The notes beneath the pieces were generated by a model. It saw only the letters and a list, made by a program, of their open reading frames with translations. It was not told the origin of the DNA and did not search any database. From positions 58,949,547 to 59,013,546 of the forward strand of contig NC_092628.1 of NCBI RefSeq assembly GCF_039555335.1: a stretch of 64,000 bases of DNA, given 5' to 3'. Position 1 is the stretch's first letter. Every line of letters starts with the position of its first letter. This document shows, piece after piece, positions 8,202-60,000 of the stretch. The translations under genes were made by a program, and so were the position numbers. This DNA comes from Amphiura filiformis. Lineage: Eukaryota > Echinodermata > Ophiuroidea > Amphilepidida > Amphiuridae.

Positions 8202-8517
8202 CATAAATATTTAAGAACACAAACACGGTGCTTAGGTATGTACCACAATGGTAAAACAAAAACGCTGTATAATGTTGTAATATCTATGACAGATTCACAG
8301 GTCTTGATAATATAGATAACCTACCGACCACACATATTAACCCATTACTTTTGATCGCACCAGTCTTACATTAAATGAAGTCCATAAACAGAAACCGGTA
8401 GGAATAAAATAAAAAAGAATCATTCTAAGTATTGAAATTCGGGCATTGCTCTTTGTATTATGTAGTTCACAAAGCTAGTACGTTGCACGGTGTTTTAAAG
8501 GTATCTCCAAAGGCTAG

Positions 8518-8717
8518 NNNNNNNNNNNNNNNNNNNNNNNNNNNNNNNNNNNNNNNNNNNNNNNNNNNNNNNNNNNNNNNNNNNNNNNNNNNNNNNNNNN
8601 NNNNNNNNNNNNNNNNNNNNNNNNNNNNNNNNNNNNNNNNNNNNNNNNNNNNNNNNNNNNNNNNNNNNNNNNNNNNNNNNNNNNNNNNNNNNNNNNNNNN
8701 NNNNNNNNNNNNNNNNN
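8518..8717. other. Assembly gap of 200 N, probably with no real missing sequence
   Basis: Exactly 200 Ns separate a left contig ending AAAGGCTAG from a right contig starting AGGCTAGACAATGG. The seven bases AGGCTAG occur on both sides. In U3 (about 27,570-27,590) and U4 (about 37,105-37,120) the same sequence is continuous, as AAAGGCTAGACAA. The two contigs therefore probably overlap, and the gap is a fixed-size scaffold placeholder. Protein predictions reading through it are meaningless. Confidence 0.9.
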
Positions 8718-10964
8718 AGGCTAGACAATGGTTCTTTTGGCAATGATGGTCACAACAGGTTCAAGCACTATTTAATCAATACTAGAGTCGTTTGTACTTG
8801 TTTAAATACATTGCTCACTGAAATAAAAAAAATATATAAATAAATACATAAACAAAAATAATGTAATAGAAGTGTGAATCTTGCGATATACTTTTTCTTT
8901 CCCGTATCTACTAGTACTAGTTCACTGGATAGTGTGCCACAGATATTTTGCAAAGGAGTGAATGAATTCTAGCAGATACTTTGTAAAGAAAGTATTTAGG
9001 TATGTGGGTGGGTTTAAGATAAATACACAATTGTGATTGCCGACCGTTGCTCACCAAGGAGCCTGAAGGAAGAAATGTATTATAAAGATATTTGTCCTAA
9101 TTGAACCCAAGTACCAATGTCTAAAGAAAAGGTTACTATAAGTTGGAATGAATTAATGAAAGCATGCCAAATCGCTAGGGTTATTTTCAAATATAATACA
9201 CACTATAGCAGAGTGTGTAAAGGTTTCTTTTTGAAAAGGATTATGTTTACAGCTAATTTTTACTTAAAGAACTATATCTAGACCAGTGCGAGGAAAAATG
9301 CAACGCTGGAAGTGACATAGCTTTTCAAACGTACTATCGTAATGAGCGATATCCGATTGTTTTCCTTAGAATTCCATTTGTACATCGTAAGGCTATTTGG
9401 CAGAAAAGAGAAAGGAGGAAGGTAACAAAAGTAGCCAAGTTTATTTCCCGCATTAGAGTTTTTTTCACTAAATGAAAAGTGATATTTGCTACCACATGTT
9501 TGTATTCTATTTTAAGCATCTTATAAGCTGTCTAATCTGTTTTATTTAAAAATTGTGAAGGAAAAATAGTACTAAAGGTTACCACCAACCACTAAAACCA
9601 ATCTGCTAATATCAATTTTCGAAAAACAGATGCTCGTGCATAACAGACATTGAAATATTTAATTATACCAAATCAATTGTGTGATCCAGAGAAGTCTCAG
9701 TGTCTTAGACTACCAGCCAATCAATTGATTTTTCTTGCACTTTTCTTCACCTTTTGCTCGCTCGTTCTACACCCACTCGCCTTCTCGCAATCTGACATCT
9801 ATACATTACACACCCATAAAATCACTGATCGACCTAATCAGCTATTATAACATAGATGTATGGAAGTGTTTTGTTATACATTTCTACAAAATACCTATTT
9901 CTAATGCGTTTTTGAACATAATCGATACCCACATGGAAATGCAATAAATCGAATACAAACATTTCTAGTCTTGGTCCATCACTTGTTTAGATTTTGAAAA
10001 ATATATATTAAGAAGAATTGCAACAAATAATGCAATCAGGTCAGTCGATTAACGTGTTGACACCGTATTGAAGATATTGTGTGATTTTCAACGCAGGTTT
10101 CGTTCGTTTAAAGGCATGATGCCCTTTAGAAAGGTGCTATTAAATAGACCGCAGAGAAGCAGCCGTTAAACATTTGGCTCACGAAGCAAACTTAAAAGAT
10201 GGCACCAATGGTACAAATTAAGTGAACTATAAAATGAATGAAACTAGGTCATGGGTAAATATTCGGAGACACATTGTTACTTGGTTGGTCCTTCCAACGT
10301 GTAAAGGCACGACATATATTCGCGTGATAATTTCTGTTACCCACGCCAATGGTAGCGTTATATATAACCAACATTTTATTGCGACTATTTCACGCAAAAT
10401 GGTGTATACTGTAGAGCATATTCACTCCACTCACCTATACTATCCAGTTGTGTACCTTAGTTTTTCTCACATCGAACTGGTGCGTCAAATCTTTAAAAAG
10501 ATATGAATAAATTATGTTAGAAAGGGCTTCCTATATAATTCCAATTAATAGACCAGATCAATTTTAATGATATTATTTTAGTTTTTAGAATTGTTGTGTT
10601 AATTCTTAAGCATGGTGACTGCTATGATAAAATAATGTTTAGAAAGCGATTTTGAAAGACTATAGAGTGTATTCAATACGACGTGACTCTTGACAGAGTC
10701 ATCCTTATTTAAATAAAATTCTGGCTTCCGCAAGGTACCACTGTACACATTGCATGATAATACAATTAAGCAGGTGGTAGGTACCGTATGAATGGTTGTG
10801 GAATCGAACTAAAGACATGTCCCTCTTGGTTGATTGATTGCATACACTCTTTTAATGGTGATATTCTGACTATTTGATTCAAATTGATTAACTTCGTAAT
10901 ATATATGCCTCAAATCCAATTTAAAAATATAGCTACTGATAAAGGGTACTATAGACAACATTTT
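8718..10964. other. Non-coding body of U1
   Basis: This stretch aligns in order with 14,635-17,720 in U2 and 27,580-30,015 in U3, interrupted there by different insertions. Shared markers include AGGTCAGTCGATTAACGTGTT at 10,036, 16,588 and 28,832. Short open frames do not keep their frame between copies, so I call no gene. Confidence 0.6.
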
Positions 10965-17723: not shown

Positions 17724-18250
17724 GCAGCCAAGTTAGCTAAATGGATTCGACTATGATTTAAGGAAGCCCCATCATGCACTGCAAAAGTGTTATCACCGGA
17801 GTTTCAACTGCCACTTAACTTTTCAAATCCCATTGAAATCTGTGCAAAAGATGTTGTTTTAGAATTGTGTGTGTGTCATTATTACTTGGTCGATCTCAGA
17901 ACAAAAGTGACGTGTGTATGAAGGATAATTCACACCTTCTTTAGATAACATAAAATGTGAAATCGACCAGCAAATTAACAATGTTTTTATTATTAATATA
18001 GCAGTACAAATTCAAATTTTAGCATGCACGTCTATGCAGTATAGCAGAGCAGTGGTGTCATGTTACTCATACAGCTCTGCTCACTGCACAGTTAACCCAA
18101 TGGGGGATGTTGGCTAGTGCTTAAATCATCCTCTTACTATGATGTGTGAGCTGTGGGTTCGAACCCTGATGGTGGTTTAGTACGTTTTCTAGTGAAAAAT
18201 TACAGTTAGTTTGAAATTCCCCTTGACAAGGAACTTAAAGTTAGCGTTCA
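17724..18250 (+). mobile_element. Second-family SINE, U2 copy, split by an insertion
   Basis: The A-box region AAGTTAGCTAAATGG lies near 17,728 and the B-box region GGGTTCGAACCCTG near 18,156. About 360 bp of unrelated sequence lie between them. TTAA occurs near both edges of the interruption (about 17,758 and 18,119), so it may be another TTAA inserter, but I see no clear terminal inverted repeat. The SINE's 3' half is missing after about 18,245. Confidence 0.55.
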
Positions 18251-18456
18251 GACTTTGCTTCACATTTCTAATCATTACACCTAATAAATATTCATTGCCA
18301 TGAGGTGATCAAGATTGTTAAGATAAATTTGATTTATTTCATCATTTATCTGTTGCTAGAAGTATTACGTCACAGTAATGTGTTCGTAAATCCCAAGGTC
18401 ATTGCTAAGATCAACATTATTCTTCCCATATTTTGTCATTTTCAAAACCTTATCAG

Positions 18457-18680
18457 AGGTAGAAAGACTACCCGAAAGACTATCAAGTTTATCCCTTGTA
18501 AAACGCTTGTTTCGAGTCATTCAAATGGTCACAATCTTCATCAATAACGGTAAAATAGACCCTGGACAAAATGTCCTTGAATATCTTTCGCCAGCACAGT
18601 TACCGCACATCGGACCAGTCGACCAAATCTTTCAAGTTTGTATTCAGATGAAAAACGCAGGCGATTATCAGGAGAATTAG
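18457..18680 (+). pseudogene. Exon-like ORF X, U3 copy (longest, unrecognised)
   Basis: A pyrimidine-rich tract and TATCAG end at 18,456. The frame then reads V-E-R-L-P-E-R-L-S-S-L-S-L-V-K-R-L-F, then D-P-G-Q-N-V-L-E-Y-L-S-P-A-Q-L-P, and ends Q-M-K-N-A-G-D-Y-Q before TAG 18,678-18,680. It is about 74 residues, leucine-rich and probably helical. The 3' part matches positions 2-73. I do not recognise a family. It straddles the boundary I chose between U2 and U3, so that boundary is arbitrary to within a few hundred bases. Confidence 0.4.
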
Positions 18681-25094: not shown

Positions 25095-25680
25095 AAGGTC
25101 ATCCTGAGGTCACAGGGGTCAAAAAAGGTCATTTTAACCGAAAATGCTCCGATTGAGCTCAAATTTAAATGCAATGATCCTTACAACATTCTAAACATGT
25201 TTAAAACATTTAAAAATTTATTTCAGGTCATTAAGGGGTCATAAAGGGGTCAAAGGTCAAGGTTTTCAAAATGCTCCAATTGAGCTGAAATTTAAATGCA
25301 ATGATCCTTATGACATTCTAAACATTTCAAAAATATTTTAAAATTCATTTAAGGTCATTAAGGGGTCATAAAGGGGTCAAAGGTCAAGTTTTTCAAAATG
25401 CTCCAATTGAGCTGAAATTTATATGCAATGATCCTTATGACATTCTAAACATTTTAAAAACATTTTAAGATTCATTTAAGGTCATTAAGGGGTCATAAAG
25501 GGGTCAAAGGTCAAGTTTTCCAAAATGCTCAGATTGAGCTGAAATTTAAACGCAATGATCCTTATGACATTCTAAACATGTTTAAAATATTTAAGGTCAT
25601 TAAGGGGCAATAAAGGGGTCAAATGTCAAGTTTTCAAAATGCTTCAATTGAGCTGAAATTTAAATGCAATGATGACAGTA
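25095..25680 (+). repeat. ~127 bp tandem array carrying GGTCA direct repeats
   Basis: About five units repeat AATGCTCCAATTGAGCTGAA and TTAAGGGGTCATAAAGGGGT. TTAAGGGGTC occurs at 25,231, 25,358 and 25,485 (spacing 127), and a variant occurs at ~25,600. Three units contain GGGTCAAAGGTCA (25,247, 25,374 and 25,501), which is two nuclear-receptor half-sites in direct order with one base between them. Confidence 0.85.
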
Positions 25681-30720: not shown

Positions 30721-31136
30721 AACGAACTTGGCCATAAATGTACAAGTATTTCAAAAAGTACAAGCAACCTTTTTAGGTATACCCAAGGTATATCATGATC
30801 CATAATCTTAGCATATCGGATCGGCATCTTTCAGCATAAGGGACCAGAGTGGGGCGGAGACTCGTCAGACCTGTGTCTCATAAATCACGAATTTCAAATT
30901 AATTAATGTGCAGTGGAAGTTACAATTCTTATATTTATGTCATATTTTCAGTAAAATCTGAGACGTTATGCGCTGCATTTGAAGTACATGTATGAACAGT
31001 TTAGGTTAAGAGACACACACATCACAACACTAATGATTTACGGGTTTTCTTTAGCTCTAGAAATGAAAATTCCTCAGATTTTACTTCCCATTTCTAATCA
31101 TTGATCTAATATTCATTGCCTTGAAGTCATCGTTAA

Positions 31137-34100
31137 AGGAAGTGTCCGGCAATCACAACATTATGTCTTATATGTTAGAAAAATAATTACCAAGCACGAA
31201 TCACGTGGTTTTATTTAAAACAAAGTCATATTAAGAGCCAATCTCCCTTATTATGTACGGATTTGCGATACAAAAAAAAATAGAATTGTCTCTAAAAAAT
31301 AATTTTGGTACATATTAGCACCAACAACTCACATGTAAAATATGAGCGTGCACAGCGCCCTCGTTCAACTTGAAAAAATTCTTGAAATTTCAGCCTCTCT
31401 GAGCCTTACTTGCAAATGGTAAACTTTGGAGGTGCATAACATTGTGCGCCATCATCATCCCAACCTGCATTTTGCATTTTTTAAAGTACCAAATGGTTAC
31501 ATTACAAAAACCAAGAAAAAATTGGGATCTTGATGGCGCACAAAATCAACAAATCAATGATTTGATGAAAAGCGCCCTCGTGCAAACTTCAAAGCATCAT
31601 AACGGGATGCGCCATCAAGATCCCAAGTCCGAACAAGTTTGAAATTAAAGACCTCCATGGCAAGTTTCATTTTTCAGCAAAAATTTTTTGGGATTTCGTT
31701 GGCGCACAGAGTTAACAGAGGTCAAAGGTCAAAATTTCCTATTTTCGCACATATTTGCACGCCTGTATTATTGCGCGCCAACGTCACCTGACTCTCCGAA
31801 TAGGATTTCATCAAAGAAGAGGTAATTCTCTGCAAGAACTGAAAAAAATTAGCTTGGGATCTCTTGATCTTCATATTTTCTGATTTTTGAAAATGGACTT
31901 AGCCTCATTTTGGAGGTCAATTTGACCTCTTTTTCCCACTCGCTGCACAATGTGGGCTTTTTACTGCATCACAAAAAGATGCGCCAACAAGATCCCAATT
32001 TTATTTTTCATCGTCTAGCTTCTTTGGCAACCAGTAGACAAAAAAACAAGCAACAGCTAATTGGGATCATGTGGGCGCACTAATATAAAAGAGGTCAAAG
32101 GTCACACTTTGTGCCAAAGTGATGCATATTTGCCTATGTGCAGCACGAAAGTGGAACTTTGACCCGCAATAAATTGTGCGCCAACAAGATCCCATCTTAC
32201 TTTTTGGATGATTGGATAAAGGGGCTTATGTATAACTGATAACAAGTAAAAAAAAAGTGGGACCATGTGGGCGCACTAATTCAATAGAGGTCAAAGTTCA
32301 TACTTTGTGCTGAATTGGCATTACTTTGCCTATGTGCAGCACAAAAGTAGAACTTTGACCCTGCAATAAAAAATGTGCGCTAACAAGATCCCATCTTACT
32401 TTTTGGATGATTGGATAAAGGGGCTTATGTATAACTGATAACAAGTAAAAAAAAAGTGGGATCATGTGGGCGCACTAATTCAATAGAGGTCAAAGTTCAT
32501 ACTTCATACAAAATTAACCGATTTTTAGCCTAAAGTTGCCGAATTCAGCAACCTTTCACTCAAATTTGGCAAAATATGTATTTTGACAAAAAAATTTTTT
32601 ACTCTCACCAACTACCATGATGGAATCAGCATCATCTGAAATGCACTCACACAAGTTTCTATGAGACATGTCTGGTGATCCCCATTGAAAAAAAATTCGG
32701 CACAAAGTATGAACTTTGACCTCTATTGAATTAGTGCGCCCACATGATCCCACTTTTTTTTTTTACTTGTTATTAGTTATACATAAGCCCCTTTATCCAA
32801 TCATACAAAAAGTAAGATGGGATCTTGTTGGCGCACATTTTTATTGTGGGTCAAACTTCCACTTTTGTGCTGCACATAGGCAAAATAATGCCAATTTGGC
32901 ACAAAGTATGAACTTTGACCTCTACTGAATTAGTGCGCCCACATGATCCCACTTTTTTTTTACTTGTTATCAGTTATACATAAGCCCCTTTATACAATCA
33001 TCCAAAAAGTAAGATGGGATCTTGTTGGCGCACATTTTTATTGCGAGTCAAAGTTCCACTTTCGTGCTGCACATAGGCAAATATGCATCACTTTGGCACA
33101 AAGCTTGACCTTTGACCTCTTTTATATTAGTGCGCCCACATGATCCCAATTAGCTGTTGCTTGTGTTTTATCTACTGGTCGCCAAAGAAGCTAGACGATG
33201 ACTAATAAAATTGGGATCTTGTTGGCGCATCTTTTTGTGATGCAGTAAAAAGCCCACATTGTGCAGCGAGTGGGAAAAAGAGGTCAAATTGACCTCCAAA
33301 ATGAGGCTAAGTCCATTTTCAAAAAATCAGAAAAATATGAAGATCAAGAGATCCCAAGCTAATTTTTTCAGTTCTTGCAGAGAATTACCTCTTCTTTGAT
33401 GAAATGCTATTCGGAGAGTCAGGTGACGTTGGCGCGCAATAATACAGGCGTGCAAATATGTGCGAAAATAGGAAATTTTGACCTTTGACCTCTGTTAACT
33501 CGGTGCGCCAACGAAATCCCAAAATTTTTTGCTGAAAAATGAAACTTGCCATGGAGGTCTTTAATTTCAAACTTGTTCGGACTTGGGATCTTGATGGCGC
33601 AGCCCGTTATGATGCTTTGAAGTTTGCACGAGGGCGCTTTTCATCAAATCATTGGATTTGCTGATTTTGTGCGCCATCAAGATCCCAATTTTTTTTCTTG
33701 GTTTTTGTAATGTAACCATTTGGTAAAAAAATGCAAAATGCAGGTTGGGATGATGATGGCGCACGATGTTATGCACCTCCAAAGTTTACCATTTGCAAGT
33801 AAGGCTCAGAGAGGCTGAAATTTCAAGAATTTTTTTAAGCTGAACGAGGGCGCTGTGAACGCTCATATTTTACATGTGAGTTGTTGGTACTAATATGTAC
33901 CAAAATTATTTTTTAGAGATAATTCTATTTTTTTTTGTATCACAACCCCCCTTATTCATGTACATAATAAGGGAGACTGGCTCTTAACCATAAAACAAAT
34001 AAAAACAGCCATCTCTCAACACGCGATATTCAAAATTCCCGCGCCGAAATTGTCTAGAGCAATGACGTCCTAATAATTCAATGAAGCCTGACGACAAATG

Positions 34101-34291
34101 AGCACAAATAACCATGACGTCATTGCTCTAGAAAGTTTCGGCGCGGGAATTTTGAATATCGCGTGTTGAGAGATTGCTGTTTTTATTCGTTTTTATGGTT
34201 AATATGAGTTTGTTTTAAATAAAACCATGTGATTCGTGCTTGGTAATTATTTTTCTAACATATAAAACATAATGTTGTGATTGCCGGACAC
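31137..34291. mobile_element. 3.15 kb near-perfect palindrome, TTAA-flanked
   Basis: TTAA at 31,133-31,136 and 34,292-34,295 flank arms of ~1.37 kb (left 31,139-32,506; right 32,703-34,290 minus a nested 215 bp insertion) around a ~190 bp spacer. Outer ends read GTGTCCGGCAATCACAACAT and its complement. Each arm contains about ten copies of a ~19 bp motif close to GTGCGCCAACAAGATCCCA in alternating orientation, and ~200 bp tandem sub-repeats. Mirror frames on the two strands (for example 31,442-31,642 and 33,567-33,782) are products of the palindrome and not genes. U2 near 18,330 shows the empty site. Confidence 0.85.
33988..34198. mobile_element. 211 bp TTAA-flanked palindromic MITE nested in the 3.15 kb palindrome
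   Basis: TTAA at 33,984-33,987 and 34,199-34,202 flank ends starting CCATAAAA and arms containing CGCGATATTCAAAATTCCCG. The left arm of the host palindrome has a single uninterrupted TTAA at the matching place (in CATATTAAGAGCC), so boundaries and target duplication are directly visible. Confidence 0.9.
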
Positions 34292-34439
34292 TTAAAATCA
34301 ATTTGATTCTCTTCATCGTTTACTTGTTGCTAAGTTTAGAAGTATTACGTCACAGTTATGTGTTCGTAAATCTCAAGGTCATTGCTAAGATCAACGTTAT
34401 TCTTCCCATATTTTGTTATTTTCAAAATCTAATCAGAGG

Positions 34440-37400
34440 CAGATATAGACTTATCATTCAGATAAAAAAACGTAGGTGATTACCAGGATCAGGAGACTTA
34501 TATACCAAATGCTGCATTCGGAGTGAAACTTACTTAATCTCACTTTAGAATCGTACCAGTGAACTGTGTTATTACATTATTTGCACACGGCAAGGGTGTC
34601 CAATATTATACAATTGCGCCTTATTTACATTTATACGGTTGATCCCAATATCTTCACAATACCGGCACTGTGAATGTTCGTTTTTCTGCAATGCAATCTT
34701 ATCTATAGTACACTGACATAAATGTTCATAAAACGTAAAAGTCAACAATGTTCTTTCAAAATTTCAAATCTTATTAATTTCTTAAGTTTTACTTTACAGG
34801 CGATACCCGCAGTAAGAAGGCTATTTGAGTTACTCGAGTTTCTGGCACAACTGGATCTATTACATGATGCAAGGACTCTTAAGCAATTATTGCTTCACAC
34901 TAAATTGTGGATAGAGGCAGAGAAATAAAAGGAAATGCCCATTTTCATCTCCTAATCAAGAACGTTATGTTTTTGATTTTTGGGTGTCCCATTAGCGCCG
35001 TGATTGTTAATATAATTTATATTTAAACCTTTTATTTTAAAAAGTCATGACTTCCTTTGGGTAGACATGTTGTCAATAAATGCCTGAATTAAATTGAGAC
35101 ATTGTATCATTGCGCCGGTTGACGCAAGAGGAGAGGCAGACATTTTCATTTAAGTTGGTAGTATGTATACTCAAAACCCAGTTCGGAGTATGGGATTATA
35201 TTGCACAACTTCATTACACAATATTAGGTTACGTAATTTTCAGTATAGCAAGGTATCTCAGAATCGCACAGAATAGTTCATTTACGCAGCTTTGTATAAG
35301 CACAGAAAAGGTATATCCTTTATAATATCAGTCTAAGGCCACAATATTTATTTATTTGAATTCAAATTTGAATCTCATAGAATGTCATTGTTGAACGTGT
35401 TGAAAGTCTTTCTTTGATAAAAAAAAGAAAAAAAAGAGCAAAAACACGTCTGGGTAGTTTCTGTTCACAACATATTTAAAAAAAAAAAGTACAACTAGTC
35501 TTTTTTCCGAGATGATTTTATAAAGATAGAATTATCTGATGTATTTTAACTACCACGCCAAGTTCAATTAAAATTACGATCCACGTACATTACACCTTAA
35601 ATAATGAATTACTATTCAACACATGCCTCTTCTCAATCATAGCTATCTAATCAAAATATTATCAAAAGAGATATAAATCTATGATTTGGATTATCTAGAG
35701 CGTGAAATTATTTAAAGAAGAAAGGTTTGATGCTATTTCAGGATGTTCTCAACCTTCATTGCATGATCGATCATTACGAGCCATAGTCAGTCGCTGGAAG
35801 TTCAAGTATTATAATAGCCAGACGACTCATCCAGACAAGGCATTGTACTTCAATTAAAAGCAACTCACTCAGCAACAACCTCTTTCGTATACATCATGAT
35901 GCATATTCATTCTTATCAGCAAGAATCATACAAGAGGTTGCTGGAAATGAGATTTAAAATTTATTGTAAAATATTAAAGTATCATGAGAACGATGAAATG
36001 TGATTCACTGTATAGACCACCGCGTATAACCTTGAAACCGGGGAGGGGGCTTTGGGGGTCTCAACCCCCTCAATAATTTGGGAGGGAAGTTAAAATATCA
36101 GCATGACAACATGGTTTTAAAAAGCCTAGGTCACGCAGTTATCACCTGCAGAAATTACCAAGAGTACAACAACCTCTCTGCCATCTCAATCACGTGATTC
36201 TGGAAAGTAAATCCTCATTTAGCAATCGTCTTAGACACGGGGCTTACATTGTCTCTAAGACAACGTATTTCATCATATTGAGATGTTCCGTCCCTAAAAA
36301 CTAATACATTTAATGCCAGCCATATAGTCGTTCAAGCTAGCCAGACGTGACTGGGTGGACTCTTCTGATATTGTCTAAAATGACTGACTTACTAACTAGC
36401 TCCCTGGGCATGATGTGGCAAGTGATTTGAGTCGATGTGGCCAGGCAGGCGAGGGATTCCATTTTGATAGCATTTTAAAGATTTAACTTTTATACAAATG
36501 TACAGTTGTCTTGCACGTTTAAGCCCTCTTGTGAATACTTTTGGAATCCACTCATGGGACATGGTATTCAACAAATCAAATAAGCTAACTCTACTAGTGT
36601 ATGATTTGACGTAGGGCACGTATAAACACAGACAACCATTTGGAGTAGTTGGTCTTAATATCATGTTTACCCGAAAAGGTGGTGTAGGTGTCAACATAAC
36701 AGCTAATGCAAATACCTATATAGATGGAGCATTTGCAGGAATTTCAAATCAAAAATAGTGTACAGGTTTATACCTATACAAAGCTTATACAAAACACGGT
36801 CTTATCATGATTATGATAAAATTGGTATCATCGTGTATTACATGAAAAACAGAAATTGTGATATGACAGATACATAATCATGTTTTAGGTCTTTAAAACA
36901 ATTTATTAATCTAGATGACCTACAAACCTTGTATTACCGCATTCGTTTTTTCATTGAATACAGTCCATACTGGTAGGAATGAATAAAGAGAACCATTCTA
37001 GGGGAAAGCAAAGATGTTCAAGCCAGAGCTTGAAATTCGGGCATTGCTCTCTGTATTATGTAGTTCACGAAGCTAATAGGTTGCACGGTGTTTTAAAGGT
37101 ATCTCCAAAGGCTAGACAAATGATCACAAGTGGTATCTCCAAAGGCTAGACAAATGATCACAAGTGGTATTTCAAACGAGGGTCTTTATAATTGTTTAAA
37201 CGCATTGTTCTATAGACTTGAAATAACCCAATGGACATTTGAATTTTTCTATTTAATTATTGTCATTTTATTCTCGCTCATATCTAGTTCACTGGTGTGC
37301 TGTATTTCGCAAATGAATGGATGAAATCTTGCAGATACTTCGTAAAGAAAGTAGGTGGGCGGTTTATACAATAATACACAATTGCGGTTGAAGACCTTTG

Positions 37401-42700: not shown

Positions 42701-43823
42701 TCTAAATGTTATTTGCCAAATATTTTGTCAACACTTAAATAACATTATGTTAGAATATTTATGTTATCAACAAAATAATGTTTTTAAATGTTATGAAAAC
42801 AATGTATACCCTTTATATAACCCGGCATTTAAACGTTTTCTGTCAATAACCTTTTGCGGATGATGTCCAAAACGTTTTGTGTTTGCTGGGATTATATCAA
42901 AGTCAACGTGAATTGATATATACCCATGAGGACGTACTAAGTTGAGAGATCTGGAAAAAGTTTAGAAACGTTAAAGGTGGATTCAATCATTGAGACTTGC
43001 GAAACGGTATACTCATTTCAACGCAAAACAAAAACAAAGCAGAACGAAACGAAACGAATAAAAAAAATCAATCTTTTCTTTTTCATCTTAAAGAGATAAT
43101 AATTGTCGAACGAACCAACCTTGATATTTTTACCAGTTTTGCCTATAACGATAGTCAACTCAACTTCCCAATCCAATTCTGATGTGAGTTCTCCAGGATA
43201 CACAATATCATCTGTTGGTCCAACTATTGAAGATGCAAACTTGTTGAAGAATACCGGTTCCTTTGGGATAGGGACATTTTGTTCAAGACAATGGTCTTTG
43301 TAGTTCATACCTACACAAAGCACTTTTTCTGGGTTTGTGATTGGTGCTTGTAGTTTCAGATTTTCCTTTCTAACAATATGACTTCCAGCACTAACAACTC
43401 TGAAATGTAAAAGCAATAACAAAACTTAAAGCTTGAGTAAGTCAAAGTAAATAATGTGCCATAAGTCTACCTAGTTGTTTTGGATGAATTGCCATGCAAA
43501 ACCATGCTACATGTATATCATTGACACAATCAGTATGAGTGGAAACTATCAATGAATGAAAAAAGAGGCCAATGGGTTTATGAGTGCCAAAAACAATGTG
43601 TAAATAATACTGTATAATATCTCGTGAAATTTTCTTAATAATTAACTTAAAACTGAACTCACTTCTTTGCTGCTTCTATAGCTGACTCCCCACCTTCTAG
43701 AAAACTCCTCATATCAGTTGGAATTCTTTTATCTGCAGCACTGATGTCCACCACATCCCCTCCATTGTTCAATTCAACCCCAACTCGTACACGATCCCCT
43801 TCCTCAAACTGTACCAAACGCAT
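39742..43823 (-). CDS. FAHD2: FAHD2-like fumarylacetoacetate hydrolase domain protein, copy A
   Basis: Six coding exons join in frame to 287 residues: 43,823-43,663, 43,399-43,120, 42,338-42,179, 41,960-41,852, 40,761-40,671 and 39,804-39,742, all with GT/AG introns and a TAA stop. The FAH fold is shown by M-R-L-V-Q-F at the start, [14 protein letters not shown] (conserved His and Glu), D-W-E-V-E-L (acidic metal ligands), H-D-V-S-A-R-D-W and L-T-G-T-P. FAHD-family enzymes are metal-dependent hydrolases or decarboxylases of small keto acids; the substrate of FAHD2 is not well established. An in-frame stop precedes the start, so there is no mitochondrial leader in this exon. Compared with copy B it lacks the Gln after A-R-D-W (exon 3 is exactly 3 nt shorter), has Val for Trp a few residues on, and has T-P-H-G-S for T-P-P-G-V. 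It is open throughout, so it may be expressed with altered activity. Confidence 0.9.
39926..39975 (+). repeat. Degenerate TTAGGG-like tract
   Basis: Several TTAGGG or near copies are interspersed with TTGGGG and TTAAAGG over ~50 bp, just 5' of exon 6 of copy A on the plus strand. This is a short interstitial telomere-like tract and is not evidence of a chromosome end. Confidence 0.6.
41269..41601. mobile_element. ~330 bp MITE with TATAGACGAATCCAA termini, copy 2
   Basis: It has the same ends and interior as the element at 7,887-8,201 and lies in intron 4 of FAHD2 copy A. TA-rich flanks fit a TA target site. Confidence 0.75.
42541..42891. mobile_element. MITE with CCCAGCAAACACAAAA termini in intron 2 of copy A
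   Basis: The ends read TCCCAGCAAACACAAAA and TTTTGTGTTTGCTGGGA. The interior has repeated AAAACGTTTT and AATGTTAT words and the phrase GTCGGATTATATAAA, which also occurs in the relative at 46,089-46,426. Confidence 0.8.
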
Positions 43824-47344: not shown

Positions 47345-50300
47345 TCACACAACACGATTTGTGCATGTTCCAATCTCATCTACTTCAACATCAACAACAT
47401 CACCTCTCTGAAATTAAAAACGAAGTAATAAGATACATAAGTAACTTCACTGTATCTTAAGTTTGATCTGATCTTGCTGTTTATTTGTTTTTGGCTTCTC
47501 TTTCCTCATTTTAAGATCAATTTCCCCCTGTACTTTCTTTCCTAGGTTAACTATTTATAATGCACCTAGAATTGTCCAAGCTCAGAAGGGGTTTGGTGCA
47601 AAAAAGCAAGATGTTGACTTCTATGATCCAAGATCAACTTGAGCAAGCAGGGTCTTAGCTAGAAATTGAGGGTTGCCCGTTATTTGAATAAAATTACCTG
47701 TCCTAATTTGACCTTTAAAAACATTTACCAGACATCTACATGTATAGCCCATTGGGTGTTCAAAGAGTTCAAATATGTGTTGATATGGCCTTGTTCTACA
47801 AATTGGGTCTACTAAAAAGGGCAATTAGCTTCTCAAAACATACAATTTATAATATAGCATCTGTCAAAGGCATTCATTTTGCCCGTCCCAGGAGCAAACT
47901 GGTCGTCTAAAATGACGGCCAGATGGGTAGCTAGCTAAGACCCTGTGAGCAAGTAATCTCATTGTTAAACTTTGTCATCATCTAATCTGTCCTGCAACTT
48001 ATTAACTCCAGGTTAATTTCCTTCAACCAGTGATCAAACATGGGACTCCTTGTACCAGAGGTAAAGGTTTCAAACCAGGCTTTTACAGATATTGTATCTA
48101 TCTAAATTTCTCACTGTGTATACTTGTGCAGCTTGAAAAGATAGATTTCACAACTATAATACCTATCATTATAATTCTTTGCCCTTCACATCTTTTGAGA
48201 GTTCAATTATTTCATTGCAAAATGATTTTCTACATGTATTGTTTTCATTTAATTTACCTTCAGGAAGACTGGTTCTGGTTTCAGGAAAACACCAACTCCA
48301 GGTGGAGTACCTGTCAATATTATGTCACCTGGTTTCAAGGTCACAAATCTGAGGAGAAAAAGAAGAAGGTGGAGTAAATATAATAATTATCAACATCCAC
48401 ATATCAGTTCAATCAAATTTCTGTATTTAGATTTAGATTATTCTGTTTCAGAGCAGATATGATCCAAGATCATCTTGAGCAAGCAATCTCATTGTTGAAC
48501 TTAGGCAACAGAGATCATGAATCTAGTGTCAGAGTGTTTAGCTAATTTTGTACAAGATGTTTTCATTTGATTGTTTATTTCTATTTTATCATGCAATAAA
48601 AAAGATGCAGAGAAAATTTATTTCAAATGTTCTGTAAAATTTCTCATTGAATTGGATTGCAACCACCATTCTGCATATTATTTGCATCACATACCTTGAT
48701 ATAAATGCTATTAGAGCTTCACTCCTAAAGACAAGCTGATCTGTGCTGCTATCCTGTACTGTTTTACCATTGACACGACATCTAATCCCAAGTTTGTGTG
48801 GATCTGTAAATGATAAATACTTCAAACATAAAATATACTGAAATCATGGTAAAGAATAATGCTTACTCAAAATGTAATAAGTATCGCAATTCTTATATCA
48901 CTTGGGCAAAAAGGAGACATCATTCATGTATAGAATTGAGAAGATAAGCATTTGGAAGTGCACAAATGCTATATCAAGCAGTAGGTCTTCAAATGTCTTT
49001 CACCTATTGCGATGACAGATTGAAGATTGGACTGGATATCCCCAAGCAACTCACCTGATAACTCATCTGTAGTGACAATGGCTGGTCCAAGAGGGCAGAA
49101 TGTATCCATACATTTACCCAGCATCCATTGTTTTAAATTCTTCTTCATCTGCCAATCACGGGCACTTACATCGTGTGCTACAGTGTACCCAAATACATGC
49201 TGCATTGCTTCTGATTCCTGGAAAATAACAATGGCTTAAGTTGAATAACACAATGTAGAAATTATGGTTAATAAATGTTTGTAAAGTATGTCATGATGTA
49301 GCTTTATTGTTCTAAATGATACCCCTCTTCCTCCATTCTCTTTCTCTCCTGTTTTCCACTTTCACTTTCACTTGCTCTAAACTTTGAACTACTTGCAACT
49401 AAAGTTGTTGTTTTTTTGGTTGCTCACAGTTTCATACAATTTCTCATCTTGGTCTGTTTTTGTATACTGTTGTGTTTATGTATATTTATATTAATTTATG
49501 TATTTTTGTAATACGGTACACAATTCAGCCTTTGGCTGCGATGTATTTGTTAATGAAACCTAAACCTAGTCCAACTAGTGAACTAGTTCCAAAATTAAAA
49601 TTTACTGAAGGAATGAAAAATTATGAAGAATAGAAAGACACACATTTTTATTTTAAGAGCTAAAAATTAATTTGTGCTAGATATTCACAATACAGAAAAG
49701 AAAGAAAAACTCACTTTGATGTTTTTACCAGTTTTGCCTATAACTATAGTCAACTCAACTTCCCAATCCAATTCTGATGTTAGTTCTCCAGGATACACAA
49801 TATCATCTGTTGGTCCAACTATTGAAGATGCAAACTTGTTGAAGAATACCGGTTCCTTTGGGATAGGGGCATTTTGTTCAAGACAATGGTCTTTGTAGTT
49901 CATACCTACACACAACACTTTTTCTGGGTTTGTAATTGGTGCTTGTAGTTTCAGATTTTCCTTTTTAACAATATGACTTCCAGCACTAACAACTCTGAAA
50001 TGTACAAAACCAATAACAAAACTTGAGCTTGAGTATTAAAGTCAAATAAGGTTTTAAAAAAGTGCCATAAGCCTACCTAGTTATTTTAAATGAATTGCCA
50101 AAGCAATGCTATATCATTACTTGACACAATCAGTATGGGTGAATACTATCAGTAAATGAAAAAAGAGGCCAACGAGTTTAGAGTAAAAAATTGTATAAAA
50201 AGTAAGAATACCGTATGTAACGTCTGTGTGGAATTTTCTATAATAATTAGACCTGAACTCACTTCTTTGCTGCTTCTATAGCTGACTCCCCACCTTCTAG

Positions 50301-51054: not shown

Positions 51055-54000
51055 ATGGCATCGACCACTTCCAGGTAATAATTTTTTTCGGTACAGAAGG
51101 TGGAAGCTTATAACATAATTATGTTATATCAGAGAAGATGTAAAAGAGGAGGTTGATCAAGCTATCCTCAAACAAAATATGTGTGAGACCGCTCACTCAA
51201 AGTAAATGATGAATCACCCTATTTAGCTGCTTTACAATAGAATACCACAATGGGGTTTGAACCCGGGATGGGTGTGATACAAAAGTTGCAGCTTTTAAAC
51301 TGCCTTTAGGGATAGGTCAGTGTGTGCATGTCATCATGCCATACACACCATGCATGCAGACCCTGTCATCTTGTCAGATTTCAGATAAAATATGACTGAA
51401 GTTCCATGGCAAATTATAATTTTTGCTACTTGTTGCCACTTTCAGACTCTATTATTTATGATAAAGAATGTTATCAATTATCAGAATATCTTTATTAGGT
51501 TGGCAGGAAATGACAGGAAAATACATAAAATAATAAAATAGAAATGATCAACAATCATCACCTCTCTAAAAATCCTAAAATTTCTTCTTTAGAAATTTAT
51601 ATATTTACAAAAAACGGTGGATTTGGGGGGAAATTTTACAGCACTCGATTTCTTTCTTGTATTATCCATATCCCATCCAAGCAGCAGGTCCTTAAGGGGG
51701 TACTACACCCCTGTCCAATTTTGTGCCTATTTTTGCATTTTTCTCACAAATTATAGCGCATTGGTGACAAGTAAGATATGTATATTATAGGGGCAAGGAC
51801 TACAACTACTGCACTGGAAATTTTATTTCGGCACAGACAGCAGTTGTGGAGTTGCAGTCAAAAATGAGGGTAAACCAGTATTTGATCAATAAATCAATAA
51901 CTACTTGCCTTGAGTTGCTGAATTTTCAGAGCAATAGTTGTAGTCCTTGCCCCTTCAACATGCATATATTAATTGTCACCAATGCGCTATAATTTTTGAG
52001 AAAATTGCAAAAATGGGTACAAAATTGGCCAGGGGTGTAGTACCCCCTTAACACACACGTTTCATACTTTTTAACAAATTCTCTATAGAAACATTGGAAA
52101 TATTTTCAATTCTGAAGTGAAAATTGGTCAACCATGGGCGGTCACACACATAACATCATAGGATATTTCAAGTGGATGTCTAACTACTTGAGAATAAAGG
52201 ACTATGAATAGATGCGACAGGATTACCTACGGGATTATCTCAAGGATATAATTCCGTTGACCCTCCTCTTTATTACATCTTCTCTGGTTATATTTAGTTA
52301 TAAGCTTAAACTTTAAACATATGATACATCATACTAGTCCGAATAATCAGACCCAGAACAAAATATTAATTTCTGACATGATCGTGTACTGGGTCTGAAC
52401 TGTTTCCATATGAAATCTTGATGGCAAATTGGACAATAGAAGCACATGGTTCTGCGTGACAGCTTTTTAATCCCTATTCAGGTTACGTGAATCACGCTAT
52501 TGTGGACCATCCTTCTGATACTTGAGTGTTTGGACAAGCAGAACGGTTTTTTGTCAACCTCTCTGTTTGTAAACAAACCAGGAGGTCGAAATCGTCCTCC
52601 TCGCCGAATACGAAAGTCAGCGTAATACGGCACTGACATCATACATGTTGTAATGATGTATTACATGATTAAAATTTAAACAATACATTATACAGTACCG
52701 TATGATTGAGTATCAGTATGCCTGAGTTACTTGTAGGAAATAGGGTGCGTCCAGTGTCAGTGAACTGTTTTCATTAGTACATGTCACAAAATATTAATAT
52801 TGACAATAATATTGACTGTTTGACCTATCCATATTGCTTATTAAATACATGTACCTATATGTTTTCATTTAATAGTCTGAATAATCAGTCCCCGAACAAA
52901 ATATTAATTTCTGACATGATCGTGTTCTGGGTCTGAACTGTTTCCAAAAGAAGCACATGGTTCTACTTGACCGCTTTTTAATCCCTATTCATGTTATTAT
53001 GTGAATCATGGTATTTGTGGACCATCCTTCTTCTGATACTTGAGTGTTTGGACAAGCGGAACGGTCTTCAGCGTAATAGTACGACACTATGTTTTCATAT
53101 CACATTTTGTGGTGAAAAATGATTACAAATTAATGTGTAATTTGCAATCATTTGTACTTTTGTAGAGCAAAGATTTCTTCATTTCGACAGCTAAAGTAGG
53201 CCTACAGATGTGAATGTACGCAAGCGCGGCGACACATACAATGTTGTACACAGCACTTCTTGGAACTCCCGGTTGGAGCTGGGACTTTTCAATTATTGGA
53301 ACTGGCCTGCTATGCATGTTGTTATTAAGCCATATTGTAATATCTGTCATAAATTACCAAGTTGGAATCTGTCAATCGATTTAATTGCTCATATATATAT
53401 ATTGTATGCATTTTAATGGGGAAATAGGTACTAAGACCGATAACCTTTTCCCAACCCGTACAAGGCCCTTCGGCCTTCGCACTTGATAATTAGTTTCCTG
53501 TTAAAGATTTTGAAAAAGGGACAAGGTGACTTTTATTTTCTTTATATATAGTTTGAACTATTACATGTACAAGCAACTATTGACTCGTTTTGACTAGAGC
53601 GGGCATTTAATTACCGGTATTTCACAACAATATTTGATTTTATAAATAAGTGAGGGTGGAGTTGTACTCTTACTTCATTCATCATTATTGTTGATGTTAT
53701 TCAAGTCAGAAAATGGCAATTAATTATTTTGAGATTTTCAATTTTGGACGCGGGCGGTAAATAGGAAACTTATAATCAAGTGCGAAGGGCCTAAAACTAG
53801 ATATGCAAGTTTTGAAACATTCTCCTTGTCATAATCATTTTACAATATGATTGTAATTCGGTATGGAACACAAACTGCAATTTCTCAGCATTAATTTGAT
53901 TACTAGCTTGCTCTGAATGCAGCTGTACAAAATGTTTTTATCAAACTATAGATGAGTTGACCTCAATGTTTATCAACAAAGGCAAGGGACTGGTATATCG

Positions 54001-57000
54001 ATATGCTTGAGTGAACCCCATGCAACCACTACACTGTTCAATTACCTTATTGTGATGTGGCAGGAAAAAACATGGGCCCTGAACAAATTATGGCGCCACC
54101 CTTAGAGTGGTGCCGAATTGAACAATTCAGCATCGATTTTGCGCCCCCTCCAAGTGATGAAAGTCAAATCATTTTCGCGCATTTCAGCACAAAGTCATTT
54201 GAAAGATCAATTTAAGACCGATATTCAACTTCATTATAACAAAATTTGGTTGACCCTATTTGTGCAAGCTTCGTGCGCTCTGCGCGCAATTGTTTCAAGA
54301 ATCAGAAGCGCCATCATGTATCCTTAGCCTTGGGCAGGCACCACAGGGTTATAGCCATGGTGGTCGCGCTGGTCGGCAGTAACCAGTACTCAGCCTGACC
54401 GACCGGCACTCCAGGGAATTGTAGGTCTTGCCAACCAGCACTAAAATGACAAATTGTCCTCAAAACAGCTGTCAAATGCCATTACTGTCAAGTAATTGGC
54501 ATTCTGATTCAATTTTCTCTTAATTTTAGCCGGCACTAAAATTTGGCTAGCTACAACCCTCACCACAACCCCTAGCTACATGTACACCACTGACTACCAA
54601 CACTTTCATTCAAGTCATAGCCTGAGGGTGATGATCTCAAGACTGGTGGGACTGGAAAATCACATGAATTTTTAATTTGTTTGTGTGTGTTTCTGTATTT
54701 TTTGGTCCTGCTTTGTAGATTGCCATGTGACACAGAATGTACTGCTGATATCAATGACTCCAGGGCAGATGGAATTATTCTAGTTGCTAATGATTTCTCT
54801 CAACTAGCAGGTGATTTGCTGTTCCTGAAAGAACCCTTGGAACAGCAGAGCCAGGTAAATATATTGGCCTCAAATAGGAACAGTTCAAAGATCAAAGGGG
54901 ACATGTAACTTCTGAGTTTCAGCCAATATTTAATGTACTGTGAACCTATACTGCACCAAAAAAGTATCCTTACACTTGGAAAAATAAACACAATTTCAAA
55001 ACTGAACCATATTGGGGTAAATTTGTTTTTTTAATAGATGCACTATCTAATCCTGCACATTATGACACCACATTGAATCCAATGTGACCTCGAGAAGTAA
55101 AGTTACAAGCAATTGAATAGACGAAGGTCCCGTTTCAAAAGTGACAAACTAGCCTATACAAAGCGTAAAAAGATCCCAACAAGCACAACACAGCTTTAAA
55201 GCAGTTTTTATTTCAGTCTTTACTTTTCTGTACTTTTCATAACTCTCATTTTATTTGTCAGTTCTTTTGTTTCAGTTTTCTTTTGTTCTTTTTGTTTTAA
55301 ATTAGCCATTCACCACCCTTAAAGCAGGTGTCTAGTCCGTGGAGTTTTGAATAGGCCAGTTTGTCACTTTTAAAACTGGACTTTCGTCTAATCAAATGCT
55401 TGTAACTTTGCTTCTTGAAGTCACATTGGATTCAATGAGGTGTCATAATGTGCCGGATTAGAAAATGCATCTATTAATGCCCGACTGCAAACAATAAACC
55501 CCTTTGGTTTTATTTGAATGTTTTTTGTTGTTGCTTATCATTGTTTTAACTAAGTTTCAGTGTCTAGCTCAATGGCATAGCATTATAGGGTATACGGTTT
55601 TAAAATGTACAAAATCCCAATGTAGGAAAATTGCCAAAAAATGGCTTGTGCTGCCCTGCCCCCATCAGGTCTGGTGCACCCAATCACGGTTGATGCACCC
55701 CAACAGGATACATTTTGTAACTCACTCTATGCCACTGGTCTACATGTAGCTAGTTGTACCTTGAATTGCATTTTATTGGGGCAGGTGGGGGTTGTAAATG
55801 CCATTGATTGATTGACTGTCAAAATGAAGAGTCATAATATTACATCACTATAGATCATATATTGCGCCAAAAAGTATCCTTACACTTGAAAGAAAAATCC
55901 TAATAAATAAACCATATTTGGGTAAATTTATTTGTCTAAAAGAAGATGGTGCATAGCAGTTTCATGAATGTGTCCACTGATTTAACAGCATACTCCTTAA
56001 GCTTTCAGGTATGGTCTTTACATTTTTATATTTGTTTTTTTACTTCAGATTGACTCTGCAGTTTGCAAAGAAGTTGTACTTCTCCCTCTGGGTACACACA
56101 GTGCTAAGCGCCTTGTTTATGCTCCAACTGGACCCTTGAATCGGGATTATGATGATGTGAGGCGCTTTGGAGATGCAGCCGGTGTTGGAATCAAACGGTA
56201 TCTACTAGTTCTTGCCCCCTTCTTGGATGGAAAATGTCTAGAACCCTTATAATGTTCACCTTTACTTCTAGCGTATTTGTTTCTTCTCTTCCTTGTAACT
56301 TACACACCTTATGTACCATAGTGGTTAAAATGGCATATTACTGTACGTGTTATGTATAATAGTAGCTAGGTACTAGCTTATTCATCACTGATCACCACCA
56401 TCCACAAAGCAAAAACAAGCCTTTGAAACTGAAACATGTTGATCTCCAGCTAACTTTGGACATTGGTCCCCATCACCCATTCCCCATACACCTTGTACTG
56501 GGATTATGATTATCTTGAACAAGTCAGATAATATTTTGTCATGGGTACATGTGGATCAGCTCAGGTCATTTCTTGGATGATCTGTTAGGTTATCTATCAA
56601 CTTCAGGTGGTACTACACCTCCTGATCAATTTTGTGACTAATTTTGCATTTTTCTCAAAAAATAACTACAAAACTGGTAACAAAAGTTATGTATATTATA
56701 GGAGCAAGGAATCCAATTACTTCACTAAAATTTCAGTGATTCAAGACCAGTGATTCATTATATATGTAAAAGAAATGATGTACATTCTAGTGGTACCTCT
56801 TTTCTTATCATAAATAATGCCTCATTAACAGCGATTCTAAATAGGGGAATGTACCTTATAATCATGCAAGAGTTCTGTATTATGACATCTAGGGGAAAAC
56901 CCAGATGTTTGCAAACATCTGGGTTTTCCCCTAGATGTCATAATACAGAACTCTTGCATGATTATAAGGTACATTCCCCTATTTCATGATACAGAATTAT

Positions 57001-60000
57001 TATACAATATGGGGTTTTGTAATGATTCTGAAATAGTACACCAAGTGGTTAGCATGCTGTAATATTGCAGTTGAAATATGAAAGTTATCTTAACTTGATA
57101 TCTACCTTTTAAGTGTACAACTTTTAAGTTGTATATTAAAATATACATTATACAGGTTAAAAAGTCTGACAGAGGTATATATCATACAATGTACACGACA
57201 CTTGCTCTGCATTTTGACCCAATGTGATAAATATTCTTCTTGTTACAGTGCCATACGGGCAGGCATGAAAAAGCCAATGCTGATTTGTGTTCCTCATGAA
57301 GCCTTCCCTGAAGCCAAGCTAGCCTGCCTCCTTGGGGCATTTCAGTCTCTCTATGTGGTAAGTTCTCTACTGATGTTCTACAGATCTATCTCCTACAGAT
57401 AGTGTGTGGTTGGTGTTTTGTCTGTGTAGGTAATAGAGAGATTGCGATTTCCAAACGTAGCATCGAACGTACGTAGAATATATTCCAAATCACTCTCCTG
57501 TGACGGGATTTTGAATAGATTCCACGTACGTTCGATGCTACGTTTGGAAATCGCAATCTCTCTAATGTCCTCACACACACACCCCTACACAATAAACCTT
57601 TGCCATCCAATCAATGACACACCAGGAAGTGTGTATGGTCCATAGAATAGGTGCACTGGTACCATTTAAAAGCATGCTTCTAATTATTGGTCCTTTTTCA
57701 GTTGGTAAAACATCAGTCTGCACTTGATAGATAAGAAAGCAAAGTATACACAAGGTCCATGTTTCATTTCTGTAATGTTTACATTTAAATAGGAAATCAA
57801 ATTTGCATGGTACTGAGCTTATATGTATGTGTTGAATTTACAACAAGGTTTGTTATTTCGAATGGTCAATACTCGAATTTGGAAAAAGTTTTGTTACTCC
57901 GAAGGGTCATTACTCCAAATTGTAGAGTAATGTCCCTTTAGAGTACACAACACAAGTTTTATGTGCAAAACATCTGCCATGTTGTCCTTGGTAAGGTCTG
58001 TGAATGCCAGTGCACACTGGTAGGGGTTGTGTGGGGTGTATGGAAGTGAATAAGACCCATCAAACATTTTCTTTTCCGTATGAAATTTCGATAAGCTGTA
58101 GACACACAACCAATGGTTGACATCCATAGTAGATCTTCGGTAGGTCTGCAGTTTACTTGTATGTTCATTATGTTCTATTATATATAAATATTATTTGTTC
58201 TACATTATTGACAGCTTCACAGCTATAATCAAGTTCGGTGTGTTTTTTTTAATCTGATAGAATCTGCGTAGTAACCATGTGCACTAATTTTAACTTCAGG
58301 CAAGTGGGCTTTGAATTCCATTATCTTATTAACATACTCTCTATTGTAACCAAACTTACAGCCTCTTGAGATTCGTGAAGACGTGCCTAGTCGTGCCACC
58401 AAAATTGACCAATTACTGGTGTGGTCTGCTAACAAAGAAGAAGGGGATAATCTTGTCAAGCAGGCATCTGGAATTGAGGGTGGAAGGTTTGTAAATTCTC
58501 TTCTTGCACCACAATGTTAACTTTTCACTCAAAAGTGCTTACGATGCCAGAAACTAGTGGGATTTTGCCATTGCAAATCCAGGACTTTTGCTGAATCCAT
58601 TGCAGGGCTGGAATTTAATATTTGCCTATTGGTCATTGAGATTTGTAAACAAGTCTGGCAAGTTACATGCCTTTTTCTTACCCAGGTTTTCTAATTGTAA
58701 ATTAATGCCTTTCATGTAAAATCCAATGCAAAGGCTCTCACATAAGACAAGCTGAATTGCAGTTCTGAACCACAGCCACAAGTCTGTTCTGGGCCATCAA
58801 GCAAGTTGATGAAACAATTCAGTATAAGCCCTTTATCCATGTTCTGTAGAACTATTCTCCAACCCAACCATGAATTATGCATTCTGCTTATTTTATGTAG
58901 AAATATGATGTATTATTATAGCAAAAGGCATCTATCAATTATATATTAAAAAGAATAATAATAATAACAGGCTCTTATATATCACCCTTAACCCAGAGGG
59001 TCTCAAGGTGCTTAACAAACTAAAAACAATTATTTAAACATCAAGAAAAATTGTACATCGCGTCCAAAAGAGATGGAACAAGAACAGGTGACAAACAGAA
59101 ATGACATCTCTCTCAAACACCGACCTACAACTTCTGCAACCAATGAGTCAAAACCATATGCATGTACGTGCCTATAAAAAACGAGAAAAACGCACAGAAC
59201 GTCACCAGAAGCCATACCAACGCCAAGCGCGATAAGTGCGGACACGTACATACATGATGGTCATTGAAAACATCACTATCACAAGAAAACCAAAGTAGAG
59301 CATAAAATACCAATATAATTAAGGGGTACTACACCCCTGCCCAATTTTGTGCCTATTTTTGCATTTTTCTCAAAAAATTATAGCGCATTGGTGACAAGTA
59401 AGATATGTATTTTATAGGGGCAAGGACTGCAACTACTACACTGGAAATTTTATCTCAACACAGACAGCAGTTGTGGAGTTACAGTCATAAATGAGGGAAA
59501 ACCAATATTTGATCAATAAATCAATAACTACTTGCCTTGGGTTGCTGAATTTTCAGTACAGTAGTTGTAGTCTTTGCCCCTATAATATACATATCTTACC
59601 TGTAACCAATGCGCTATATTTTTTGAGAAAAATGCAAAAATAGGCACAAAATTGGCCAGGGGTGTAGTACCCCCTTAAGTCTACAATATACAGCCAAATC
59701 TTAGATTAAAACTACAGTTAGATTAAAAGACTAATATTATACAACAGGAATAGTAAATTAAAATGAAGACAAATAATACACAAAAAAGAGAACAGATAGA
59801 AGATATTCTAGTCATGTAGTAGAAAGTAAAAATGAATTGATATGTTCAGCAATACAGTTGTCTTAATAAAAACTTGTCAAAGGATTGTAAAACACATATC
59901 ACCATGAATAACATCAGTGTATTTTGGTATGTTTTTTGTGATAGACTGGTTGCCAGGGACATAGGGGGATCAGACCCTGAGAGAATGGCAGCTCCCAAGG

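Follow-up and report, generated by a model that had tools for sequence, protein, structure and literature searches.

What kind of element is the large palindrome at 31137-34291, and why do its arms carry one short motif again and again in alternating direction? We addressed both questions within a single window, the 64 kb stretch of DNA in which the palindrome lies (35% GC, 200 N), and all sequence statistics given here come from that one window and one copy of the element. The original prediction of a 3.15 kb palindrome is borne out: the structure spans 3155 bp, and its arms are 97% complementary, with 39 mismatches over 1356 aligned bases (gaps left out of the count). Alignment of the arms places the left arm at 31137-32515 (plus strand) and the right arm at 32694-34291 (minus strand), on either side of an unpaired centre of 178 nt (32516-32693) that has no Pfam match. 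A terminus search found a terminal inverted repeat, GTGTCCGGCAATCACAAC, at 31142-31159 on the plus strand, and the same 18 bases without a difference at 34274-34291 on the minus strand; the terminus of the palindrome is present as a single copy in the 64 kb window. No Pfam domain was detected in any of the six frames of the element at E values up to 0.1. On this result the idea of a coding remnant was dropped and, because the six frames are without a Pfam family, the palindrome looks non-autonomous. The outer arms also share a repeated word, GCGCCCTCG, at 31355 and 31572, mirrored at 33629 and 33845. Elsewhere, the window contains a smaller, perfect palindrome of 146 bp (56839-56984; 73 nt arms, zero spacer), two duplicated exons for an FAA hydrolase, both on the minus strand (43018-43425 and 49685-50035; Pfam), an assembly gap (a run of N) at 8499-8843 inside a listed open frame, and a frame at 61730-62119 that we take to resemble a non-LTR reverse transcriptase tail, to which Pfam gave no match. 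The hydrolase exons and this last frame suggest that the DNA is from an animal.

The flanks of the palindrome indicate how it came to be there. It is bordered by TTAA on both sides, at 31133-31136 and at 34292-34295. The locus has a diverged tandem copy at 18248-18463 (plus strand) that is free of the palindrome: the flank 31074-31131 aligns to 18248-18310 with 79% identity and the flank 34292-34443 to 18318-18463 with 86% identity, and in this copy only one TTAA, with a gap of 6 nt immediately to its left, stands where the two flanks join, as against a TTAA on either side of the element. Because the paralog is an empty site with one TTAA, it is close to shown that the palindrome is a transposon that arrived by insertion at TTAA. 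Structurally, the whole element, as defined by its complementary arms and by the paralogous empty site, is a foldback transposon: long terminal inverted repeats make up most of it, the TTAA target site is duplicated at its borders, and its arms are internally repetitive, each with a 197-199 bp tandem array (Tandem Repeats Finder) and six motif pairs, one of them decayed. Within the first 37500 nt of the window, a multi-kilobase unit is present as several diverged tandem duplicates (families D1-D4 among them), one of which contains the empty site. The right arm alone carries a further insertion that was absent from the original prediction, a nested palindromic MITE of 211 bp at 33988-34198 (CCATAAAA...TTTTATGG), which is itself bordered by TTAA (33984-33987 and 34199-34202); the left arm retains the empty TTAA that is the counterpart of this site at 31231-31234.

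The motif is concentrated in the element. A scan of the 64 kb window with GTGCGCCAACAAGATCCCA, allowing up to 6 mismatches, returned 24 matches, of which 20 lie inside the element with 0-3 mismatches; every one of the four outside has 6. The ten left-arm positions given in the original prediction are right to within 1 base, and what it had described as about 20 sites in almost strict alternation proves to be 20 sites that alternate in direction with zero exceptions, ten of them mirrored in the right arm (starts 32734 to 33746). The sites fall into inverted pairs. Within the left arm, the motif scan gives pair 1 at 31444-31541 (plus at 31444, minus at 31523), pair 2 at 31607-31707 (plus at 31607, minus at 31689, followed by AGGTCAAAGGTCA at 31719), pair 4 at 31979-32080 (plus at 31979, minus at 32062), whose outer spacer is common to pairs 5 and 6, and pair 5 at 32176-32276 (plus at 32176, minus at 32258); pair 6, at 32375-32475, is a tandem duplicate of pair 5 with an identical inner spacer. 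About 300 bp separate the element end from the first motif. Start-to-start distances along the left arm are 79, 84, 82, 290, 83, 114, 82, 117 and 82, so the 80-200 bp spacing originally proposed misses the single gap of 290. That gap contains a decayed pair 3 (31773-31873), recognised by sequence inspection and a placement test, in which half-motifs at 31773 (plus) and 31855 (minus) match at best 12 and 10 of 19 positions and retain the 82-nt spacing. For a site chosen by eye beforehand, its score was 22, against a largest value of 21 in 4000 placements of the same spacing elsewhere in the window, and mirror copies of the half-motifs are present in the right arm near 33350 and 33428. Spacing within pairs is 79-83 nt in the left arm and 77-84 nt in the right. 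A distance of 82-84 bp fits eight helical turns, and pair 1 measures 79 (left) and 77 (right); that helical phasing sets the spacing is suggestive only. Across the ten left-arm sites, the invariant columns are TGCGC (positions 2-6), C (10) and TCCCA (15-19), and the middle varies.

Is the motif kept better than the DNA around it? This check, which the original prediction had called for among genomic relatives, was run inside the element, where it favours the motif between pairs and does not reach significance between arms. Same-orientation copies of the motif in pairs 1, 2, 4 and 5 are identical at 14-18 of 19 positions, while five of the six comparisons among the inner spacers of these pairs are near chance (z from -1.7 to 1.8); the sixth, pair 1 versus pair 5, reaches z 3.9, and pair 1 versus pair 6 reaches z 4.0. 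We had counted four independent pairs, but dropped this figure on finding that the outer spacers of pairs 4, 5 and 6 are related (that between pairs 4 and 5 is 84% alike to that between 5 and 6, z 15.9); a weaker likeness to those of pairs 4-6 (z 3.0-5.2) extends to the outer spacers that follow pairs 2 and 3. Because pairs 4-6 have outer spacers in common, there are only about three independent motif lineages (pair 1, pair 2 and pairs 4-6), plus the decayed pair 3. The count of 20 sites likewise overstates the number of independent events, since the right arm mirrors the left and pairs 4-6 share spacers. Between arms, the motif differs at 3 of 190 positions and the remainder at 36 of 1166, a contrast that has the expected direction and is not significant (Fisher p = 0.35). 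On about three lineages, then, the motif has been kept while the inner spacers turned over.

Could such a pattern have arisen with no function for the motif at all? A unit with one inverted pair may have been tandemly duplicated with a period of 197-199 bp and the arm then mirrored, leaving the motif as a neutral by-product. In favour of this, there is a tandem array of that period in each arm, the inner spacers of pairs 5 and 6 are identical, the outer spacers are common to pairs 4-6, and an amplified internal segment, a likeness to the arrays seen here, is reported in the available text on the T2-MITE member Xmix (PMC6004289). What duplication leaves unexplained is that pairs 1, 2 and 4 keep the motif, and with it a spacing of 79-83 nt, around inner spacers that are mostly unrelated, and we consider a purely neutral origin somewhat unlikely, if a serious candidate. 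A further idea, that each pair is a nested mini-transposon, was dropped when no common duplication was seen, by eye only, in the flanks of the pairs.

If the motif binds protein, its layout raises the prospect of a ruler-like scaffold, in which inverted pairs of two-block 19 bp sites, set about eight helical turns apart and several of them with a second word, would be loaded in a regular alternating array with a THAP transposase and another DNA-binding protein, zipping the two arms together. The sites have TGCGC towards one end, TCCCA at the opposite end and a variable middle, and several have the word at a fixed 30 nt offset. The literature searched yielded no description of such end pairing in Kolobok or foldback transposons, and we regard the scaffold as an unlikely refinement.

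The same accompanying word could instead speak for a host protein, in which case the arrays would serve not a transposase but a regulatory module made of the motif and a AGGTCAAAGGTCA-like word at fixed offset; the word resembles what we take to be a DR1-like site for nuclear receptors. With up to 1 mismatch, AGGTCAAAGGTCA has 11 matches in the window, 8 of them within the element, against 0.09 expected. At 4 of the 6 minus-oriented sites of the left arm, the motif start and the start of AGGTCAAAG are exactly 30 nt apart, and the first bases of the 11-nt gap before AGGTCAAAG differ between pairs 2, 4 and 5/6; 2 of the 6 plus-oriented sites have a match of 8 of 9 positions, 29 and 32 nt to their outer side. 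Yet the word is missing at pairs 1 and 3, it appears 3 times in another tandem repeat (25247-25513), and the outer spacers that pairs 4-6 have in common hold 5 of the 6 word-bearing sites, whose constant offset there may reflect shared ancestry. The AGGTCAAAGGTCA-like words of the element are mostly in these related spacers and their mirror images. A host-factor module seems to us a live rival, if a distinctly unlikely one. A 127 bp tandem array at 25141-25673 contains GGGTCAAAGGTCA, almost the same word as that of the palindrome.

The original prediction had left the choice between a protein-binding array and serial hairpins. If the pairs were hairpins, whether RNA or single-stranded DNA stem-loops for small-RNA pathways or cruciforms, selection would act on pairing, and the two halves of a pair should change together. 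Motif identity is 16.0 of 19 within pairs and 16.05 of 19 between pairs, with no sign of covariation and no compensatory change. Folding gives a divided picture: RNA of the left arm (31430-32480) is far more stably folded than 40 dinucleotide shuffles of it (z = -10.9). In its minimum-energy fold pair 1 forms 17 and pair 4 forms 16 of the 19 motif base pairs, but the other four of the six (pairs 2, 3, 5 and 6) make not one base pair of their motif stem. With both arms present, small hairpins would in any case be expected to lose out to the long stem that the arms make together. Because the halves of a pair do not co-vary, the sequence favours protein sites over hairpins, which we now find highly doubtful; the invariant TGCGC and TCCCA blocks, beside inner spacers that are mostly unrelated between lineages, also favour the array half of the prediction.

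If the motif is a protein site, the identity of the element bears on which protein that might be. Its left end reads TTAA, then AGGAA, then GTGTCCGG. The AGGAA at 31137-31141 (plus strand), directly after the TTAA, corresponds to the AGGRR signature of T2-MITEs and is absent from the right end, where ...GGACAC directly abuts TTAA without the five terminal bases found at the left; a loss of five bases would explain this bare end. As described in the accessible portion of one study, T2-MITEs of Xenopus combine a TTAA target with a terminal AGGRR and are presumably non-autonomous Kolobok elements, whose transposases usually have a THAP DNA-binding domain (PMC6004289). The present element resembles them in its TTAA target duplication and, at one end of two, in its terminus, and departs from the T2-MITEs of that account in having palindromic arms of about 1.37 kb each and a right end that does not fit AGGRR (PMC6004289). 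TTAAAGGRR on its own is no rarity in the window (6 seen versus 3.7 expected in shuffles); its left-end copy coincides with the end of the palindrome. A literature search for the string 'TTAAAGGRR' gave no match. A Pfam search of the six frames found no Kolobok DDE, THAP or H2CH transposase inside the element, as expected for a non-autonomous copy. Judged from its sequence, then, the link to Kolobok is probable, and we describe the element as Kolobok-like without assigning it to the superfamily.

Neither of two other superfamilies accounts for the element better. P-type target duplications, as in Galileo, are not TTAA, which is the duplication found here. A piggyBac-type element would offer the TTAA duplication and inverted ends, but piggyBac termini are of the CCY... 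type, and the element starts with AG... on one strand and with GT... on the other; its right-hand ...AC, next to TTAA, matches neither Kolobok nor piggyBac. The RR/YY form of Kolobok termini is given, in the portion of the source available, as what distinguishes them from piggyBac (PMC9587614), and with a left end of AG... we think a piggyBac origin very unlikely. The window has a second TTAA-bordered MITE at 51696-52047 (TTAA at 51692-51695 and 52048-52051; ends GGGGGTACTACACCCC...), whose GG...CC ends have the RR/YY form described for Kolobok in that same text (PMC9587614). An arm related to this MITE is present at 59548-59674, where TTAA follows too.

Taken together, we propose that the palindrome is a non-autonomous foldback transposon that was mobilised by a Kolobok-type (T2-like) THAP transposase acting in trans, with the motif as an accessory binding site, an explanation to which we give about an even chance. 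The foldback element would have inserted at TTAA, its transposase probably being supplied by another element. The 19 bp motif would most likely be an accessory site for the THAP domain of that transposase or for a partner protein, and the inverted pairs, about 82 bp (near eight helical turns) apart, may allow dimers or higher multimers to load along each arm. Such loading would raise end specificity and might help unite the two arms in synapsis. The present copy is probably now stuck, as its right end lacks the five terminal bases seen on the other side. A THAP transposase is the first candidate for the motif-binding protein because Kolobok transposases usually carry a THAP domain, and by analogy with Galileo and Tetris. 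The motif, however, shows no clear fit to what we take to be the THAP1 core, which counts against a THAP reading.

How unusual is this layout? The original prediction knew of no described family that has it, which is too strong for the arms and holds, in the available descriptions, for the pairs: internally repetitive long-arm foldbacks are known in Galileo (PMC3688188) and Tetris (PMC4079207), and alternating pairs at near-fixed spacing are not seen in the text available for either. Galileo, a foldback-like element of the P superfamily in Drosophila, is similar in its long arms (1.2 kb in Galileo-G) and in repeats that contain THAP-domain sites; the domain has an 18 bp footprint about 70 bp from the end, as against a first motif about 300 bp from the end here, and two further sites within the arm repeats, demonstrated by gel shift (PMC3688188). 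The portion of that study available reports three Galileo sites, two of them in direct repeats, and no strictly alternating inverted pairs (PMC3688188). Tetris, of Drosophila virilis, is likewise non-autonomous, with long arms, tandem units of about 220 bp and no apparent coding capacity, and its authors suggest extra transposase sites in these repeats; as described there, however, Tetris consists of tandem repeats of one unit, whereas pairs of different lineage in the present element share mainly the motif (PMC4079207). The two Drosophila elements are not the only parallels for arrayed sites. En/Spm (CACTA) elements have many short subterminal sites for TNPA, a transposase partner, in both orientations near their ends; they differ from the present element in belonging to another superfamily and in having a shorter motif and sites closer to the ends.

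We also looked for relatives. No match to the motif string was returned by a literature search. The core motif occurs at 10 loci in viral contigs, one site at each, with 2-4 mismatches from the full consensus and a GC content of 40-65%, and 2 of the 10 have one further weak match (5 mismatches); as single sites at such GC contents, these were read as chance and rejected as relatives. A terminus match in one viral contig (locus L011) was also rejected, being 19 bases inside an open frame, and the other matches had E values of 0.1 or more. The gapped motif pair and the 24-base terminus each had 0 matches in bacterial and archaeal genome contigs, a result that says little on animals. No transposase was seen, nor a second copy in the 64 kb window, nor a relative in the viral, bacterial and archaeal contigs.

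In foldback transposons generally, the purpose of long, internally repeated arms is described as uncertain in the available text of the Galileo study (PMC3688188). The present element is a natural test case, in which the motif and its spacing persist while most of the DNA within the pairs turns over, which argues for a protein array. Should that reading hold, an idea tested at the bench only in Galileo, among the systems compared here and in the descriptions of them available, would apply to a TTAA-inserting, Kolobok-like element as well.
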